A DNA stretch of 56,671 nt, from contig JAGVBT010000150.1 in assembly GCA_020059605.1 (NCBI GenBank), forward strand, positions 1 through 56,671, given 5' to 3'. The translations under genes were made by a program, and so were the position numbers. Positions 37,630 through 45,540 of the stretch are shown here, in pieces. The notes under the pieces were generated by a model. It did no database searches, was not told the origin of the DNA, and was given only the letters and a program-made list of their open reading frames with translations. This DNA comes from Deltaproteobacteria bacterium. GTDB lineage: Bacteria; Desulfobacterota; BSN033; UBA1163. Positions within the stretch are counted from its first letter, which is position 1. Each line of letters starts with the position of its first letter.

Positions 37630-38886
37630 TCACACCTCCAGGAGGATGAGATCGGGATCTTCGAGGCGGGCGATCACGGTGTTAAGAAAACGGGCTCCTT
37701 CTCCACCATCCACGACACGGTGATCAAATGAAAGGGAGAGGCTCAGAATTTTTCGAACCACTAATTTTCCATTTCTCACCAAAGGCGTGTCTTTCATTTT
37801 TCCGACACCGAGGATTGCCACTTCAGGGTAATTGATGATTGGAGTCGCATAGATTCCGCCTAATGCCCCGTAGTTGGAGATGGTGAAGGTCCCCCCCCTC
37901 AAATCGGCCAGGTCAATCGTTCGATTCCTGGCCTTTTCAACCAGCTGGGTTAACTCGTCCGCTATCTGAAGGATGGACTTATCCTTTGCATTTTTCACCA
38001 CGGGAACCATCAGGCCTTCAGGTGTATCGGTGGCGACGCCGATGTTAAAATATTTTTTCAGAATGATCTCCTCATGTTCATCATCCAACGAGGCATTGAG
38101 ATAGGGATGCTCGCTCAATCCGGCGATCACGGCTTTGACGATGAAAGGAAGGATGGTCAGCCTGATCCCCTTTTTCTCCGCCGTCTTCTTCTCCTTCTCC
38201 CTGATCTTCCACAATTCCGTGACATCCGCTTCATCCATCGTAGTCACATGAGGTGCCGTATATTTCGATTTGACCATCGCCTTGGCAATGGAGCGCCGAA
38301 CCCCTCTTAACGGAATTCGATCCACATATCCGTAAAGGTCATACTTCTTCACTTTTGTAATCTTCTTTTCCGGCTCCGGAGGTTTTCCCTTGGCATCGGC
38401 GAATTGGCGAACATCCTTCTCCAGAACTCGCCCCTCAGGCCCGCTCCCTTTCATTTTATTAATATCAACCCCCATCTCCTTTGCCAGAGATCGAACAGCA
38501 GGAGTGGCAAGCGCATGTTCGCTGACCAGGACTGTTTTAACCGGTTCTGCTGTAACGGTTACGGATGGGGCTTCTTCAGGCGCCTCCTCCAATTCACCCA
38601 CAACCCCCACTGATCCGGGTCTTGGAGGTGGAGCGGCCAATGCTTCTCCTTCCTCTCCGATAATGACAATTACCTGCCCTACCTTGATGATCTCTTTTTC
38701 CTTGGCCAATATTTTCAGAATGACCCCTGTTTTGGGAGAAGGGATCTCGGCAAGGGCCTTGTCGGTTTCCACCTCAACAAGAGGCTGCCCCTCTTTAACT
38801 TCATCCCCTTCTTTGACCAGCCAGCGTACGATCTCCCCTTCGGTCAGCCCTTCTCCGATATCAGGAAACTTGAATTCGAAAGCCAT
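37630..38886 (-). CDS. 2-oxoacid dehydrogenase E2 (dihydrolipoamide acyltransferase)
   Basis: 418 residues; TAGGAGG precedes the ATG. One lipoyl domain (residues 1-80, Lys43 in ETDKALAE), an E1/E3-binding domain (about 125-165, TPAVRSLAKEMGV) and the catalytic acyltransferase domain with HRVVDGG (His389, Asp393). Linkers are rich in Pro, Glu and Ala. It transfers the acyl group from E1 to coenzyme A, giving acetyl- or branched-chain acyl-CoA. It follows the E1 genes; E3 is not in the window. The substrate (pyruvate or branched-chain 2-oxoacids) cannot be fixed from sequence alone. Confidence 0.93.
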   Translation of the reverse strand: MAFEFKFPDIGEGLTEGEIVRWLVKEGDEVKEGQPLVEVETDKALAEIPSPKTGVILKILAKEKEIIKVGQVIVIIGEEGEALAAPPPRPGSVGVVGELEEAPEEAPSVTVTAEPVKTVLVSEHALATPAVRSLAKEMGVDINKMKGSGPEGRVLEKDVRQFADAKGKPPEPEKKITKVKKYDLYGYVDRIPLRGVRRSIAKAMVKSKYTAPHVTTMDEADVTELWKIREKEKKTAEKKGIRLTILPFIVKAVIAGLSEHPYLNASLDDEHEEIILKKYFNIGVATDTPEGLMVPVVKNAKDKSILQIADELTQLVEKARNRTIDLADLRGGTFTISNYGALGGIYATPIINYPEVAILGVGKMKDTPLVRNGKLVVRKILSLSLSFDHRVVDGGEGARFLNTVIARLEDPDLILLEV

Positions 38887-38981: not shown

Positions 38982-39959
38982 TCAAAAACTCATCACCTTT
39001 TTCACCGCTGCCACAACTCTCTTGGGATTGGGGAGATAGTAGTGTTCGGACTTCAGCAAGGGCATAGGGATATCGAATCCCGTCACCCTCTCAATAGGCG
39101 CCTGAAGAGAGAGAAATGCCTTCTCATTGATCAGAGCAATGATCTCAGCCCCCAGGCCGCAAGTCTTTGGCGCCTCGTGGACAACGACCGCTCTTCCTGT
39201 TTTTCGAATCGATGTGATGATCGCATCCACATCCATGGGCGAGATCGTTCTGAGATCGATGATCTCCATATCGATCTTATCACCTTTCAATTCCTCAGCC
39301 GCATTTAAAACCTCTCTCACCATTGCACCCCAGGCAATGACCGTCACATCCCTGCCTTCCTGAACCAATCGAGCTTTGCCCAATGGAATGGTATAGGCTC
39401 CTTCCTGAACCTCCTCGCGAATGGCCCTGTAGATGCGTTTGGGTTCAAGAAAGATGACCGGGTCGAGGTCACGGATCGAAGCAAGGAGCAACCCTTTCGC
39501 CTCAGAGGGAGTGGATGGGATGACCACTTTGATCCCTGGCGTATGGGCTAAGATCGCCTCTGGGCTTTCAGAATGATGTTCAGGCGCATGGATGCCACCC
39601 CCATAGGGAACCCGGATGACCAATGGACAGGTAAACCTTCCCCGTGAGCGATTCCGAATCCGGCCGATGTGGTTGGTAATCTGATCGAGGCAGGGATAGA
39701 GAAAACCATCGAACTGAATCTCGGCAATCGGCCGGAGTCCATAGAGGGCCATGCCCATGGCTGTGCCTACGATTCCTGCCTCCGCGAGAGGGGTATCAAC
39801 TACCCGCTCACCGCCAAACCTCGCCTGGAGCCCATCGGTCACACGAAAGACCCCACCCTCGCGGCCCACGTCCTCACCTAAGACCACGACCCTCTTATCC
39901 CTCTCCATCTCCTCCCGGAGAGCTAAGTTAATTGCCTCCACCATATTGAGACGTGCCAT
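38982..39959 (-). CDS. 2-oxoacid dehydrogenase E1 component, beta subunit
   Basis: About 325 residues from the ATG at 39959, nine bases after GGGGAG. The family core is present: [51 protein letters not shown] and [16 protein letters not shown]. With E1alpha it forms the thiamine diphosphate-dependent decarboxylase. It sits between the E1alpha and E2 genes. Confidence 0.95.
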
Positions 39960-40011
39960 AATCAAATTCTCCCCAACGAATCCTTTCTCTACTGAACTTG
40001 AGTCCCTGAAT

Positions 40012-40153: not shown

Positions 40154-41224
40154 CTAAAGTGTTGCCTTCAAATATTCCATCTGTTCTTTCAACTGCGGCG
40201 TCATCTCTGCAAACACATATTTAAAAATATCTTCAACTTCGGGTACTGGAACCGCTTCAGCCTCCTTAACTACCTGGTCAATCTCCTTCTGCGCCTCTTC
40301 AGTCAACCGCTTTTCAACATCATCACTCCAGAGTCCCCTCTCTTTTAAATAGAGTCTAAGCCTGACCAATGGGTCCAAAGGTTTCCATGGCTCCATCTCT
40401 TCATCCGTCCTGTATTTGGTTGGATCATCCGCAGTGGTATGGGGACCGAATCGATAGGTCACTCCCTCAATAAGGGTGGATCCTCCTCCGGAGCGGGCTT
40501 TATCAACGGCTTCCTTTGTTGCCGTGTAGACAGCAAAGAGATCGTTTCCGTCCACCTGAATTCCATCAACTCCATAGGCAACTGACTTCTGGGCAATCGT
40601 CTCCGAGGCGGTCTGGATCTTTCTTGGAACAGAGATGGCAAACTGGTTATTCTGGCAGAAGAAGATGCTCGGAGTTTTGAAAACTCCCGCGAGGTTCATC
40701 GCCTCATGAAAATCACCTTTGGAGGTTGCGCCATCTCCAAAATAGGCGATGGTCACAATTTTATCTCCCCGGATTTTTGCCGCCCAGGCAGTGCCGACCG
40801 CATGAAGAGGATGAGTCCCAACGGGTATGGAAACTGGCATAACATTGATCCCCTCCGGAGCACGACTCCCTTCCTCATTGCCCATCCAGTAGAGGTAAAC
40901 CGTTTTAAGGGGAATGCCCATCATCAGGCTTGCGGCCAATTCCCTGAAGGCTGGAAAGACCCAATCCCCTCTTTGAAGCGCATAGGCGCTTCCAACCTGG
41001 CAAACCTCCTGCCCCCAGACAGGCGCATAGGTTCCCATTCTTCCCTGTCGCTGGAGCATCAAGGCCTTCTGATCAGCCAGCCGGATGAAGACCATCTTCT
41101 GATAAAGCTGGAGCGTTTCCTGATCGTTGAGCGGCGCCCCCATCTCCGAATAAAGCGTCCCATCAGGCTTAAGCATCTGGAACATCTTTCCCTTTAAAGG
41201 ATGGTAATCCTCAAACAAACCCAT
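40154..41224 (-). CDS. 2-oxoacid dehydrogenase E1 component, alpha subunit
   Basis: About 356 residues from the ATG at 41224, with GAGGGAGTAAAT upstream. The thiamine diphosphate site is GDGATSKGDFHEAMNLAG through FFCQNN. The phosphorylation-loop-like region reads YRFGPHTTADDPTKYR. The type resembles Gram-positive pyruvate or branched-chain 2-oxoacid dehydrogenases (separate alpha and beta chains). It is first gene of the operon E1alpha-E1beta-E2. Confidence 0.95.
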   Translation of the reverse strand: MGLFEDYHPLKGKMFQMLKPDGTLYSEMGAPLNDQETLQLYQKMVFIRLADQKALMLQRQGRMGTYAPVWGQEVCQVGSAYALQRGDWVFPAFRELAASLMMGIPLKTVYLYWMGNEEGSRAPEGINVMPVSIPVGTHPLHAVGTAWAAKIRGDKIVTIAYFGDGATSKGDFHEAMNLAGVFKTPSIFFCQNNQFAISVPRKIQTASETIAQKSVAYGVDGIQVDGNDLFAVYTATKEAVDKARSGGGSTLIEGVTYRFGPHTTADDPTKYRTDEEMEPWKPLDPLVRLRLYLKERGLWSDDVEKRLTEEAQKEIDQVVKEAEAVPVPEVEDIFKYVFAEMTPQLKEQMEYLKATL

Positions 41225-41304
41225 ATTTACTCCCTCATTTCCGATTTTAGATTCTAACACGCAAAATCTGAGAATTTTCTTCTAACATTTTGACCCACTA
41301 AGAA

Positions 41305-41402
41305 TCTCCCCTCCCCTGGCGGGAGGGGATTGAGGGGAGGGGAACCAAATTCCCTTTGTCCACCCCCACCTCTATCCTCCCCCGTCGAAGGGGGAGGAGG
41401 CT
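41305..41402. repeat. C/G-run palindromes upstream of the E1alpha operon
   Basis: TCCCCTCCCCTGGCGGGAGG (41306 onwards), continuing GGATTGAGGGGAGGGG, is a strong hairpin. It is followed by CCTCCCCCGTCGAAGGGGGA (41375 on). The pieces resemble the other C/G-run palindromes at 3455, 43293 and 52927. No gene is seen in 41225-41487. Confidence 0.55.
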
Positions 41403-41487
41403 TAGCGCCAAAATTTCAAATATTTTTGGTTAGATTTTAGATTTAAGATTTTTTCAATCCGTATTCCGCAATCTGCAATCCGAAATT

Positions 41488-41760
41488 TTATTCAAGGGCC
41501 CATTTCTTCAGCCGTTCGTAGTCTGCGGAACCGCATATCCATTTCCCGGTCTTCGTATTGAAGAAAAAGGGGACTCCCCCGCATTGTCCTTTATCGTACT
41601 CTCTCATCAGCTTGGCATTCGCTTCATTGTGCCAGATCTCAAGCCTGGCCACACGGATGCCCTCTTCATCCTCTAACCTCTCCACGAGAGGATCCATATG
41701 ATGGCAGTGCGGTCACTCTGCCCCGGTAAATTCCAAAAGATAAAATTCCTCCTTGGACAT
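41488..41760 (-). CDS. Thioredoxin-like selenoprotein: in-frame TGA (Sec16) in a U-P-H-C redox motif
   Basis: The minus strand from the ATG at 41760, eight bases after AGGAG, reads MSKEEFYLLEFTGAE, then TGA (41713-41715), then PHCHHMDPLVERLEDEEG in the same frame to 41488, 90 residues in all. The TGA occupies the first position of the redox-active pair in a small thioredoxin fold, where a Cys is expected: U16-P-H-C19. The downstream part has the family cis-proline loop (GVPFFFN) and further Cys in GQCGG and WICG. A hairpin of bacterial SECIS form follows the TGA. Taken as an ordinary stop, the gene would yield a 15-residue peptide despite an excellent start signal. Translation starting at the downstream Met would delete the first strand and active site. 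Probable role: thiol-disulfide reductant in the cytoplasm. It lies 14 bases beyond the prenyltransferase stop on the same strand? No: it is downstream of that gene in transcription, so it may be the last gene of the DoxX-UbiA unit. Confidence 0.8.
41677..41691 (-). promoter_or_regulatory. Candidate bacterial SECIS hairpin
   Basis: In the message, CCUCUC-GUG-GAGAGG forms a perfect six-base-pair stem with a three-base loop starting with G. Twenty-one bases separate the UGA from the stem, so the loop starts 27 bases after it. This fits the known bacterial SECIS form (loop roughly 16-37 bases after UGA, a G at the loop start). A competing outer pairing (AUCCUCU with AGAGGAU, 41668-41693) is also possible. 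Confidence 0.55.
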
Positions 41761-41774
41761 GCGATGTTCTCCTT

Positions 41775-42824
41775 TCATGTTGGAATCGTTGCCTCCCGGA
41801 CCTTATCTCTATTCCGCGGGAATAATATTTTCCCGATCAACCTTGCAATAGGAATGTAAAGGATGATTAAAACGAAAAGGGGAAGAGTCGATGCGACCAG
41901 ATTGCCTGACCCAAATCCTTCCATAAAATATGCGAGGATGAGCAAGATGCCTGTGAAGTTATGGGTGCAGATCATTCCCAGGTTGGCGGGCGCCATCTTC
42001 ACAGGATCCTGATAATTGCCTCTTAAAATCGAAATGGTCTTAAAGGCAATGGGAAGGGTCAGCAGGGAGATCAATCCAACAAAAGGAATCTTCCCTAAAA
42101 AGATGCCCATCAGGATGGCGCCATAAGCCGAAAGGAGGCTAAGAATAAATAGTTTCACTCCTGCCTCCCTCCCGAAGCGGGCGACCAAGTTCAGTTTTCC
42201 GGCTTTCCTGTCTTCAAGATAATCTGGAATTTCATTGATCGTAATCATCGAGAAGAGCATGATCCCGAAGGGAAGCGTTCCCCAGAAGGCTTCCCATGAG
42301 AGCTTCTGCGTCTGGACATAGTAAGCTCCGAGACCGATGCCCGGACCGAAGCAGAGGAGCTGGGCGATTTCCCCGAGCCCCCTGTAGCCGAATCGAATGG
42401 GGGGAGCCGTATAAAAGAAGGCACAGAAAAAACCAAATGCTAAAAGGAAGAGAACAAAAGATCCCCTCAAAATTCCTAAAAATATTCCGATCCCGATTGC
42501 AATGATATAGAAGCCCGCAAAGACGTGACGCATCTGATCGGGACTGATCAAACCCTTTGAAAGAGTGCCGCTTCCACCTGAATAAGGATTCCCATGCGAA
42601 TCGAAAGCATCGACCAGATGGCGGAAGTCATAATAGTCATCCGTCATATTGAGGGCCAGGTGGTTAAGGACGAGACCCAGCAACACCAGGAGGAAGTATC
42701 CCGTATGGAATTGGCCTTCAAAGGTCCAGGCAATCATCCCTCCCAATATTCCCGGTATGAAACTGGCGGAGGCATAGTGAAATCGGAAGGCCTTCCACCA
42801 GACCTGAAGAGATTTTAAGCTCAT
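41775..42824 (-). CDS. UbiA-family prenyltransferase, MenA-like
   Basis: About 349 residues from the ATG at 42824, two bases after the DoxX stop. Eight to nine membrane helices are present. The two Asp-rich motifs of the family are NMTDDYYDFRHLVD and DYLEDRKAGK, which bind Mg2+ and prenyl diphosphate. The pattern is closest to MenA-type 1,4-dihydroxy-2-naphthoate prenyltransferases of menaquinone synthesis, though other UbiA substrates remain possible. Menaquinone would suit the cytochrome systems elsewhere in the window. Confidence 0.85.
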   Translation of the reverse strand: MSLKSLQVWWKAFRFHYASASFIPGILGGMIAWTFEGQFHTGYFLLVLLGLVLNHLALNMTDDYYDFRHLVDAFDSHGNPYSGGSGTLSKGLISPDQMRHVFAGFYIIAIGIGIFLGILRGSFVLFLLAFGFFCAFFYTAPPIRFGYRGLGEIAQLLCFGPGIGLGAYYVQTQKLSWEAFWGTLPFGIMLFSMITINEIPDYLEDRKAGKLNLVARFGREAGVKLFILSLLSAYGAILMGIFLGKIPFVGLISLLTLPIAFKTISILRGNYQDPVKMAPANLGMICTHNFTGILLILAYFMEGFGSGNLVASTLPLFVLIILYIPIARLIGKILFPRNRDKVREATIPT

Positions 42825-42826
42825 AG

Positions 42827-43228
42827 TCAGTTTTTCTTTCCCCTGAAAAGGTAATCGAAGCTCAACCGGCCCGGACCGGCGGCGAGCAGCAGGAGGCACC
42901 CTCCGAACATGCTCATATTTTTCATGAACATAATCATCTGGACGCGATCGCCAAAATTGGTGTGAAAGATGAGGGTGGTCGGAATGAGGAAGATGAGGAT
43001 GAGGAGGGCTCCCCACCTGGTGAAATACCCCAGGATGATGCTCAGGCTTCCTGCCAGTTCAAAGACGATGGCGCCGAAAAGAAGAAAACGCGTATAAGGC
43101 ATGCCGAATTTGGCCATAACCTGGGCGGTTCCCTCAAAATTTCCGATCTTCCCGATCCCTGAATTGAGGAAAATAAGAACGAGAAGAATCCTGCCGATCA
43201 AACTGCCTAAGGCTTTCACCCATTCCAT
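42827..43228 (-). CDS. DoxX-family membrane protein
   Basis: About 133 residues from the ATG at 43228, with AAAGGGGAAGG upstream. Four hydrophobic helices are visible, with RILLVLIFLNSGIGKIGNFE at the start and GAIVFELAGSLSIILGYFTR in the middle, both typical of DoxX/DoxD-like proteins. The family is linked to quinone and thiosulfate chemistry in some organisms but mostly uncharacterised. Translation of the prenyltransferase is probably coupled to it. Confidence 0.85.
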   Translation of the reverse strand: MEWVKALGSLIGRILLVLIFLNSGIGKIGNFEGTAQVMAKFGMPYTRFLLFGAIVFELAGSLSIILGYFTRWGALLILIFLIPTTLIFHTNFGDRVQMIMFMKNMSMFGGCLLLLAAGPGRLSFDYLFRGKKN

Positions 43229-43292
43229 AACCTTCCCCTTTCCCCCTTCTTCACCCCATCTCGCCTCCCAATCTAACGCCCCATCCATCTTC

Positions 43293-43350: not shown

Positions 43351-43848
43351 TTAGAAGTCTAATCTTATGTTTCCATATTTCTTCACATGTTCGACCAGCC
43401 CTCCGTCGCTGAGGATTTGCTTCATCACGGGTGGAAGGGGAAGGAAGGAGACCGTTTCATCCCGGCTGTAGTTGACAATTCTCCCTTCCTCCAAAAAGAG
43501 TTCCAATACATCCCCTTCGCCAAATTTTTCAGTATCACAGATCACAGCAGGCAGACCATTATTAAAACAGTTCCGGTAAAAAATTCTGGCGAAACTTTTC
43601 GCCAGAACAGCCTGGATGCCGTTCATCTTGATCACAATGGCCGCATGCTCCCGGCTCGAACCCTGACCGAAATTCTCGCCGGCAACGATAAAATCACCGT
43701 GAGACACCTCCCCGGAAAAATCAGGCCGTTCATATTCCATGATGTGTTTTGACAACTCCGGTAAATTGGAGCGCAGGTAGAAGTAGCGGCCGGGGATGAT
43801 ATGATCCGTGCTGATGGCATCTCCGAATTTCCAAACCCTGCCCTTCAT
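43351..43848 (-). CDS. leuD: 3-isopropylmalate dehydratase (or homoaconitase-type) small subunit
   Basis: 165 residues, the size of the HacB/LeuD2-type small subunit. Signature: FGDAISTDHIIPGRY at the start, GENFGQGSSREHAAI (substrate-binding loop) and AKSFARIFYRNCFNNGLP. It forms the swivel domain of an aconitase-family enzyme. It follows the large subunit by 12 bases. Leucine synthesis is the most likely pathway, but the sequence alone does not exclude a homoaconitase-like role. Confidence 0.9.
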   Translation of the reverse strand: MKGRVWKFGDAISTDHIIPGRYFYLRSNLPELSKHIMEYERPDFSGEVSHGDFIVAGENFGQGSSREHAAIVIKMNGIQAVLAKSFARIFYRNCFNNGLPAVICDTEKFGEGDVLELFLEEGRIVNYSRDETVSFLPLPPVMKQILSDGGLVEHVKKYGNIRLDF

Positions 43849-43860
43849 TGAACCACCCTT

Positions 43861-45114
43861 TCAGAGATATTTTCTAGGATCTGCAATCTTCCCTTCGATG
43901 GCGGTTGCGCCTGCCATAGCGGGCGATCCCAGATAGATGAACGAATTGGGGCTTCCCATCCTTCCTTTGAAATTTCTCGGCTGGGTCGCCAGGCAGACCT
44001 CCCCATCTCCCAACACTCCCTCATGAAGGCCGACGCATGCCCCGCACCCGGGGGGCATCGTCAGGGCGCCTGCTTCGATGAGGGTCTCCATGGTTCCATC
44101 CTTGAGCGCTTCTATGTAAACCAAACGGGAACCGGGGGTAACAATCATCCTTGTCTTGGGATGGATTTTTTTACCTTTCAATATGTTAGCCGCAACCCGA
44201 AGGTCTTCCAACCGACCATTGCAGGAGGTCCCGAGATAGACCTGGTCCACCCTGACTTCGCCGATCTCGTCGATGGTCCGGATATGATCGACTTGATGGG
44301 GACAGGCAATGGTGGGGCTGAGGGTCCTTGCATCGATCTCGATAGTTTTCTCATAAATGGCATCAGGGTCGGGGGTCGATTTTTTAAAATCTCCAGGTCT
44401 CCCCATCCGGTTCAACCAGTCCCGAGTGATCTCGTCGGAGGAAAAGGTCCCCACTTTTGCTCCTGCTTCCACGGCCATATTGGCGATGGTCATCCTGCCC
44501 GCCATCTCAAGGCGCCCAATCGTATCCCCGGTAAATTCCAGCGCCTTATAGGTGGCCCCTGCCGCACCGATCCTGCCGATCAGATGGAGGATGATATCCT
44601 TGCCATAAACGCCCACCGGGAGTTCGCCTTCCACAACAACCCTGAGAGTCTCCGGAACCCTCAACCAGATCTTGCCAAGTGCCATGGCAACGGCGACATC
44701 GGTTGAGCCTGCGCCCGTGGCAAAGGCTCCCAGAGCTCCGCCGGTACAGGTATGGGAATCGGCTCCGATGACCACCTCACCCGGCTTTACCTCCTTTTCA
44801 GCCACAACCTGATGGGAAATGCCATATCCTACTTCTGAGACCTGACATCCTGTCCTTTCTGAAAACTCCCTCAAAAAATTATGATCATTGCTCAACTCAA
44901 ACCTCGGACTCGGAGCGGCATGGTCCAAAAAGAAGAAGGTCTTTTGCGGATTGGAAACCTTTTCAAACCCCATCTCCTGGATCTTCCTAACTGCCAAGGG
45001 GCCGGTTCCATCCTGAGCATAGGCAAGATCGACTTTGACAACGGCAATCTCCCCTGCCCTGACCTCTTTCCCCGAGTGTTCACTTAATATTTTCTCAGCT
45101 AAGGTCATTCCCAT
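43861..45114 (-). CDS. leuC: 3-isopropylmalate dehydratase (or homoaconitase-type) large subunit
   Basis: 417 residues; GAGG lies nine bases before the ATG. The aconitase-family Fe-S residues are visible: Cys in GADSHTCTGGALG, Cys in LGTSCNGR and the pair GCGAC with surrounding MPPGCGACVGLHEGV. These ligate the 4Fe-4S cluster. The length and motifs match the bacterial/archaeal HacA-LeuC subgroup. First gene of the leuC-leuD pair. Confidence 0.92.
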   Translation of the reverse strand: MGMTLAEKILSEHSGKEVRAGEIAVVKVDLAYAQDGTGPLAVRKIQEMGFEKVSNPQKTFFFLDHAAPSPRFELSNDHNFLREFSERTGCQVSEVGYGISHQVVAEKEVKPGEVVIGADSHTCTGGALGAFATGAGSTDVAVAMALGKIWLRVPETLRVVVEGELPVGVYGKDIILHLIGRIGAAGATYKALEFTGDTIGRLEMAGRMTIANMAVEAGAKVGTFSSDEITRDWLNRMGRPGDFKKSTPDPDAIYEKTIEIDARTLSPTIACPHQVDHIRTIDEIGEVRVDQVYLGTSCNGRLEDLRVAANILKGKKIHPKTRMIVTPGSRLVYIEALKDGTMETLIEAGALTMPPGCGACVGLHEGVLGDGEVCLATQPRNFKGRMGSPNSFIYLGSPAMAGATAIEGKIADPRKYL

Positions 45115-45186
45115 AACCGTTCCTCAAGCTTCTCAACGAAAATAATCCTTTTGTTATTTATATCATACAAGCCTGATTATTGCACC

Positions 45187-45215
45187 TTGAAATTTTGATT
45201 CGTCATTCTTAACTT
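45187..45215 (+). promoter_or_regulatory. Promoter candidate for the alpha-crystallin-like gene (shared type)
   Basis: TTGAAA (45187-45192), 17 bases, TAACTT (45210-45215). The ATG lies 25 bases after. The same TTGANN-17-TAANTT arrangement precedes the genes at 45721 and 48185. Confidence 0.45.
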
Positions 45216-45240
45216 TTTATTAGAGAAAGGGGGTGTTGTT

Positions 45241-45540
45241 ATGAACAAAAAAGTCAAAGTAACCCCATGCGCCTGTATTTCCCATGACAACGATCATGGA
45301 CGCCTCAAAGTCGAAGTGGAGATGCCAGGTGTTGATAAGAATGAAATCAAGCTGGATATGAGAAAAGACAGTTTTTGTGTCTCAGCCCCAAGGGGGGAGG
45401 ATACCGAATATTCGGGCTGCTACATGTTGGCCCATGAGGTGACAGCCGATAAGGCCGAGGCCCAGTATGAGAATGGCCTCCTAAGAATCTTCGCCCCGAT
45501 GAGAGACTGGGGGCATAAAGTGACTGTCCCGATCCAATAA
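45241..45540 (+). CDS. Small Hsp20/alpha-crystallin-like protein with N-terminal CxC
   Basis: 99 residues, with AAAGGGGGTG before the ATG. The alpha-crystallin core is recognisable (GRLKVEVEMPGVDKNEIKLD, then NGLLRIFAPM) but the protein is shorter than usual and lacks the flexible N-terminal arm. An unusual CAC motif near residue 10 and Cys47 and Cys60 suggest metal or redox sensitivity. Probable role: holdase chaperone. A strong terminator follows. Confidence 0.85.
   Translation: MNKKVKVTPCACISHDNDHGRLKVEVEMPGVDKNEIKLDMRKDSFCVSAPRGEDTEYSGCYMLAHEVTADKAEAQYENGLLRIFAPMRDWGHKVTVPIQ

Follow-up and report, generated by a model that had tools for sequence, protein, structure and literature searches.

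The 56,671 nt contig JAGVBT010000150.1 of a Deltaproteobacteria bacterium (GenBank assembly GCA_020059605.1), which was analysed over its full length and is referred to here as the window, carries on its minus strand a small gene (41488..41760) which, as judged from sequence comparison, almost certainly encodes a selenoprotein of 90 residues with a thioredoxin-like fold, an E-U-P-H-C active site and selenocysteine (Sec) at residue 16. The frame starts with an ATG at 41760-41758, preceded at an 8-base spacer by an AGGAG ribosome-binding site (41769..41773, minus strand), and runs through 15 codons to a TGA at 41713..41715 which is predicted to be read as Sec, and then through 74 codons to a TAA at 41490-41488. 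These coordinates had been proposed in an earlier sequence-only reading of the window and all of them check. The same reading expected that an automatic annotation would begin at an internal methionine, and the mechanical list of open reading frames (ORFs) does so, placing the start at ATG 41697 and giving a protein of 69 amino acids from which the active-site residue is consequently lost. When the entire window was scanned with loose criteria for TGA codons in frame and beside Cys (UxxC, CxxU, UxxU, or CU), seven candidates were obtained; the only UxxC candidate was the 41488..41760 gene, and it is the one for which homologues were sought.

Homologues were identified in 12 of 17 genomes of the window's order, in 13 of 23 genomes of its class and in 15 of 395 sampled genomes of its phylum, these three samples being nested. 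Twelve loci were also found in named genome contigs; the eight TGA loci among them occupy the same contig positions as eight of the 12 from the order and were counted once. The full set is composed of 23 loci, 12 with TGA and 11 with Cys. All 12 distinct TGA copies, which are those of the window's order, have the TGA at codon 16 and belong to one family (f1), and each locus has a GGAGG-like box (GGGGG in one) at the place that corresponds to the ribosome-binding site of the window. The remaining 11 copies, from seven Desulfobacterota genomes and four contigs titled as Aenigmatarchaeota, Micrarchaeota (twice), and Woesearchaeota, without exception carry TGC or TGT at this position, which is the Cys that had been anticipated there. 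Purifying selection was similar on the two sides of the TGA, with dN/dS values (NG86) of 0.036 before and 0.041 after it, as calculated from the 19/66 and 43/66 pairs for which the ratio was defined, the undefined pairs (47/66 before and 23/66 after) being left out. A reassignment of UGA to another amino acid throughout the genome is of negligible probability, since five genes of the cluster (E1 beta, E2, UbiA, DoxX, and LeuC) terminate at a UGA, none of the nine other genes checked has an internal UGA, and the codon aligns here with Cys, and since a tRNA-Trp of the window's genome has the anticodon CCA.

A hairpin of the sequence CCUCUC-GUG-GAGAGG (41677..41691, minus strand) starts 21 bases past the UGA, with a stem of 6 bp and a GUG loop that begins 27 nt past the UGA, and represents a putative bacterial selenocysteine insertion sequence (SECIS) element. 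The bacterial SECIS model, as given in the accessible text of PMC13188914, has a loop of 3-9 nt, a stem of 4-16 bp, a G in the first two loop positions, a distance from UGA to loop of 16-37 nt and an energy <= -7.5 kcal/mol. With its loop of 3, stem of 6, GU opening, and distance of 27 nt the window hairpin is within all of the structural limits quoted from that source, and bases +1 to +45 after the UGA of the window copy fold at -9.5 kcal/mol. The more telling observation is a freeze of silent sites which is found in TGA copies only: at codons +8 to +12 they showed silent differences in 22 of 310 comparisons (7%) vs. 45% across the gene, and the same five codons of the Cys copies reached 73%. 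A sixfold degenerate leucine codon within the hairpin is CTC in all 12 TGA copies. The only changes to the hairpin among these copies affect a loop base (one copy) and the outer pair (two copies; U-A for C-G, and U-G), so that base pairing is retained in 72 of 72 pair cells. A value as low as that observed was obtained for 19 of 100000 random five-codon sets, and any window as low appeared in 217 of 20000 shuffled orders, frequencies which are not strict probabilities because the TGA copies are related to each other. The strength of the case for the hairpin is in the comparison across copies, not in the window sequence by itself. Single-sequence folding gave an unremarkable z-score of -1.0, and an Rfam scan returned 40 matches at E <= 5, all of them under the gathering score and with no SECIS family among them.

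Of the machinery for Sec incorporation, the genome from which the window derives encodes selA (533 bits), selB (372 bits, over cut-off) and a selD (392 bits) which has one in-frame TGA. The earlier reading had named an absence of all sel genes as the finding that would speak against Sec, and this is not what was found, the missing member being selC, the gene for tRNA-Sec. Across the order a tRNA-Sec was detected in 15 of 17 genomes at 76-83 bits, all 15 being called tRNA-Sec (TCA) by ARAGORN, and selB and selD were over cut-off in 16/17 and 14/17 genomes, respectively. Of the 12 genomes bearing the redoxin gene 10 have a tRNA-Sec; it is missing from the window's genome and from genome G004.

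Several results count against Sec and should be set beside this evidence. The core of the window hairpin, at -6.9 kcal/mol, misses the -7.5 limit found in the accessible text of PMC13188914, whereas the fold of bases +1 to +45 is below it at -9.5 kcal/mol. When a rule of at least 6 bp together with the -7.5 limit was applied to the hairpin only, it passed just six of 12 TGA copies along with one of 11 Cys copies, and of 2000 codon-shuffled versions of the window copy 93 satisfied a 6-bp rule which the actual window hairpin fails on energy. Covariation is too weak to carry the case alone: there is a single compensatory, both-sided pair change, and 85 of 500 shuffles reach as much. As the 12 TGA copies form one family they are not independent. 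Finally, selC was not found in the 167-contig assembly of the window's genome, where a relative's tRNA-Sec used as query gave no match and the sole match at the Rfam cut-off, with a score of 47.0 bits, is a tRNA-Ser(TGA) according to ARAGORN. The genomes of the order are fragmented (60 to 530 contigs), which makes an assembly gap the likely reason. The missing selC, together with the standard code, is what could be said for the TGA being a true stop, that is for a frame remnant, a sequencing error, or a gene beginning at the internal methionine; we regard this as very improbable, given that the TGA recurs in 12/12 genomes with strong constraint on both sides and with ATG and ribosome-binding box retained, and that the internal start drops the active-site residue. 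On the selenoprotein view, Sec would be inserted at the UGA with the help of SelB, tRNA-Sec, and the putative SECIS hairpin, whose loop is 27 nt further on.

In the unrooted tree of the homologues there is one change between Cys and Sec (support 78/86), and as far as the sequences indicate Sec was probably acquired within a single family. The idea that Cys copies mark a loss of Sec decoding was rejected, as six of the seven Cys-bearing Desulfobacterota genomes have a tRNA-Sec; for the same reason Sec is not simply retained wherever it can be made. No relatives were found in phages, plasmids, or viral contigs.

The SelD of the order is itself a selenoprotein with one in-frame TGA (loci L099-L112 and L116-L118), and two copies are present in genomes G008, G009, and G011. 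All 17 selD copies over cut-off have a hairpin whose loop is located 20-21 nt past their own TGA and starts with G (GGA in 12, GAUC in five). At three further loci (L057, G011:C36:25300-25389; L058, G015:C152:9262-9351; L059, G010:C188:2306-2395) a tRNA scoring 52-57 bits to the tRNA-Sec model carries the Cys anticodon GCA and is called tRNA-Cys by ARAGORN. It is encoded less than 60 bases from a second selB, in G011 with the second selD alongside, and G010, G011, and G015 are among the five genomes of the order without the redoxin. Variants of tRNA-Sec which insert Sec at Cys codons are known, and L057-L059 may constitute a second locus of selenocysteine type that puts Sec at Cys codons.

With regard to the protein, the predicted fold is close to ordinary thioredoxins, with U/CxxC at the first helix and V63-P64 as the presumed cis-proline loop. 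The Cys/Sec positions 16, 19, 60, and 76 are invariant in 23/23 copies, as are W43 and H44. Both the fold and the invariance of Cys19, the second Cys of the motif, agree with the thioredoxin-like UxxC protein described in the sequence-only reading; the second invariant Cys pair (60 and 76) and the pyruvate dehydrogenase operon discussed below go beyond it. The window protein did not reach any Pfam or NCBIfam cut-off. Against PF00085 it scored 21.6 bits (cut-off 23.5); this model matched all 23 members at E <= 0.01, and when 10 Cys copies were scanned singly nine were at 23.5 or above (one exactly at it) and the archaeal L031 copy was at 19.1. For the thioredoxin equivalog model TIGR01068 (cut-off 96.8 bits) the window protein scored 12.7 and the 10 Cys copies at most 31.6. 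A phmmer search of the PDB with a Cys copy ranked repeat-protein artefacts at the top and protein disulfide isomerase and thioredoxin lower. In the Pfam and NCBIfam scans the family is without a model of its own. Presumably, by the geometry of thioredoxins, Cys60 and Cys76 flank the active site, and this arrangement, with the invariance of all four positions, is what could favor a protein binding a metal or an Fe-S cluster at 16, 19, 60, and 76 instead of a dithiol redoxin. Such a role is highly improbable in our view; Sec is rarely a ligand of metal or Fe-S sites, and the Pfam zinc-ribbon matches were weak and few.

Ordinary thioredoxins have a WCGPC active site. A UxxC thioredoxin-fold selenoprotein is a known kind of protein; the tie of this family to pyruvate dehydrogenase was not met in the open-licence literature searched. 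The UxxC thioredoxin selenoproteins (Trx, PF00085) described in the accessible text of PMC13188914 likewise combine a thioredoxin fold, in which UxxC opens the first helix, with an in-frame SECIS-like hairpin and Cys homologues. The window family differs from them in its EUPHC/ECxHC active site, in the two extra invariant Cys and in the pyruvate dehydrogenase operon, and from thioredoxin proper in that the window protein is below PF00085 and all scanned members are far below TIGR01068. The same text names HUIPC (NF047660), SaoT (NF040730), and GOS_C (NF045500) as UxxC thioredoxin-like selenoproteins; none of these three models matched the window protein at E <= 1, and among the 23 members NF047660 gave a weak match to one only (16.9 bits, cut-off 105). 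The redoxin family was not found in the accessible parts of the selenoprotein catalogue literature (PMC13188914, PMC9312934, PMC12013277), and among the matches listed from open-licence literature none named a thioredoxin-like selenoprotein of a pyruvate dehydrogenase operon.

Downstream of the redoxin gene and on the same strand are the genes for pyruvate dehydrogenase E1 alpha (40154..41260, mechanical start; TIGR03181, 477 bits, over cut-off), E1 beta (38982..39965; NF006667, 330 bits, over cut-off) and a dihydrolipoyl acyltransferase E2 (37630..38886) which has the lipoyl-lysine motif ETDKA and scores below the curated cut-offs of the acyltransferase models. This order is conserved: E1 alpha is downstream of the redoxin in 22 of 23 loci and is followed by E1 beta, and E2 comes after E1 in 15 of 23. 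Among the eight loci without E2, those of L142, L144, and L034 are cut by the end of the contig or locus. The linkage to E1 extends over four families of Desulfobacterota and, going by contig titles, three archaeal phyla, including archaeal L031 in which E1 alpha is also over the TIGR03181 cut-off. Genes related to lipoate are found inside archaeal loci, namely LipA (over cut-off), which separates the redoxin from E1 alpha in L032 and L033, and an LplA-like gene (far below cut-offs), which has the same position in L031 and separates the two E1 genes in L034. The almost constant position beside pyruvate dehydrogenase genes suggests that the family is an unrecognised redox partner of the complex, and its dedication to this complex is very probable on the strength of gene order. 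The ordinary fold and the PF00085 matches reported above would be in keeping with a thioredoxin-like selenoprotein of general function, tied to the operon by location only, but this is improbable in the face of an E1 linkage retained over such distant taxa and of the extra invariant W43, H44, C60, and C76.

The linkage to E1 and E2 across distant taxa, together with the archaeal lipoylation genes, makes lipoyl-E2 or E1 the simplest choice of partner. The complete proposal, which we hold to be probable, is that the product is the Sec form of an unnamed redoxin family of the lipoyl-dependent pyruvate dehydrogenase complex and acts via lipoyl-E2. The link to the complex is one of gene order, from which the partner and the direction of electron flow are inferred, and a direct action on the lipoyl group is on this basis only slightly favored. 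AhpD, Ohr, and OsmC are not known to be thioredoxin-fold homologues of the window protein. They are thiol proteins which draw electrons from lipoylated E2-type proteins, and the accessible text of PMC8945050 mentions neither selenocysteine nor a place in E1-E2 operons for them. Since thiol proteins fed by lipoylated E2 are known, we propose an exchange between the thiol or selenol of residue 16 and the lipoyl disulfide. The selenolate or thiolate of residue 16 would attack the disulfide of lipoyl-E2, or would take electrons from dihydrolipoyl-E2, and Cys19 would resolve the intermediate; Cys60 and Cys76 would be a second dithiol. In this way the complex might have, in addition to E3, a route for electrons to or from the thiol pool, or might maintain its lipoyl arm or its thiols in the proper state under the conditions of an anaerobe.

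Certain features of the loci and genomes do not sit easily with this proposal. One locus, L152, has no E1 near the redoxin. In the window, E1 alpha (mechanical start) begins only 227 bases past the redoxin gene, and this gap includes a palindromic stretch. In family f53 E1 is present and no E2 follows in four of five loci, an arrangement ill-suited to a lipoyl-E2 partner unless E2 is encoded at another place; at these four (L150, L151, L153, and L154) tblastn detected no E2 over the 4.4-5.0 kb downstream of E1 beta, the only region searched. The place of E2 is taken at L151 and L153 by what we assume to be a DJ-1/PfpI-like gene. As E3 is encoded in the window's genome, the redoxin is not needed there as its replacement. 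The f53 loci would be in keeping with a selenoprotein redoxin of the complex that acts on cysteines of E1 or E2, or as a protector or assembly factor, and not on lipoyl, for which the gene order would be the same. An extra Cys is indeed present in the Sec-family operons, in E1 alpha (12/12; GQEVCQVG) and in E1 beta (11/11; YPCLDQI), where the Cys-family operons have Ala or Met (10/10 for each subunit), the motif contexts having been read by eye. This Cys could reflect ancestry or co-evolution with the selenol; it is confounded with ancestry because the Sec copies are one family, and the archaeal LipA and LplA-like neighbors point to lipoate. A non-lipoyl role of this kind is accordingly possible but unlikely.

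In ordinary complexes dihydrolipoyl-E2 is oxidised by E3, a flavoprotein of another fold (TIGR01350, model length 461). An E3 over the TIGR01350 cut-off is encoded in 14 of 23 genomes, among them that of the window, where it scores 489 bits and is located elsewhere, beside a LipA-like gene; the notion that the redoxin is in every case a substitute for an absent E3 was thus rejected for this genome. Genomes G009, G022, G100, G129, G229, and G380 and three of the four archaeal genomes had no match over the cut-off. As only 44 of the 61-108 first-look candidates were scored in Sec-family genomes, a miss such as that in G009 is weak. All first-look candidates were scored in G129, G229, and G380. 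Three Desulfobacterota genomes of 99% completeness are among those without a match over the cut-off, and with every candidate scored their best match was at only 123-131 bits. The lack of an E3 over cut-off in nine of 23 genomes and of E2 downstream in the four f53 loci leads to a bolder reading, in which the redoxin would be a fourth working component of some pyruvate dehydrogenase complexes and take the electrons of dihydrolipoyl-E2 instead of E3; in Desulfobacca-type loci without a neighboring E2, its U/CxxC disulfide would itself oxidise hydroxyethyl-thiamine pyrophosphate on E1 and transiently accept the acyl group. We consider this a long shot.

If lipoyl-E2 is the partner, anaerobes would have in the proposed redoxin a second redox outlet, or a guard, for their pyruvate dehydrogenase complex. 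In either case a conserved redoxin, with Sec in a single lineage and Cys elsewhere, sits within an operon that encodes the best-studied enzyme complex of central metabolism, both in bacteria and in reduced archaea, and the question is testable now, as a Cys homologue is presumably encoded by the cultured sulfate reducer Desulfobacca acetoxidans.

The interval between redoxin and E1 alpha contains a GC-rich palindromic stretch (41300-41405) which resembles a dispersed intergenic repeat or a terminator. Upstream of the redoxin and on the same strand the window encodes a MenA-like UbiA prenyltransferase (41775..42824; below cut-offs) which ends 14 bases before the ATG, a protein that from its sequence we take to be a DoxX-like membrane protein (42827..43288), and presumed LeuD- and LeuC-type hydro-lyase genes (43351..45114). 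Within the Sec family the UbiA gene is upstream in 12/12 loci, DoxX in 11/12, and the LeuD/LeuC-type pair in 8/12. On the opposite strand, within 43351-45540 upstream of the operon, is an ORF which we assume to be small heat-shock-like, and further upstream in three relatives there are genes which appear to be citrate-synthase-like.
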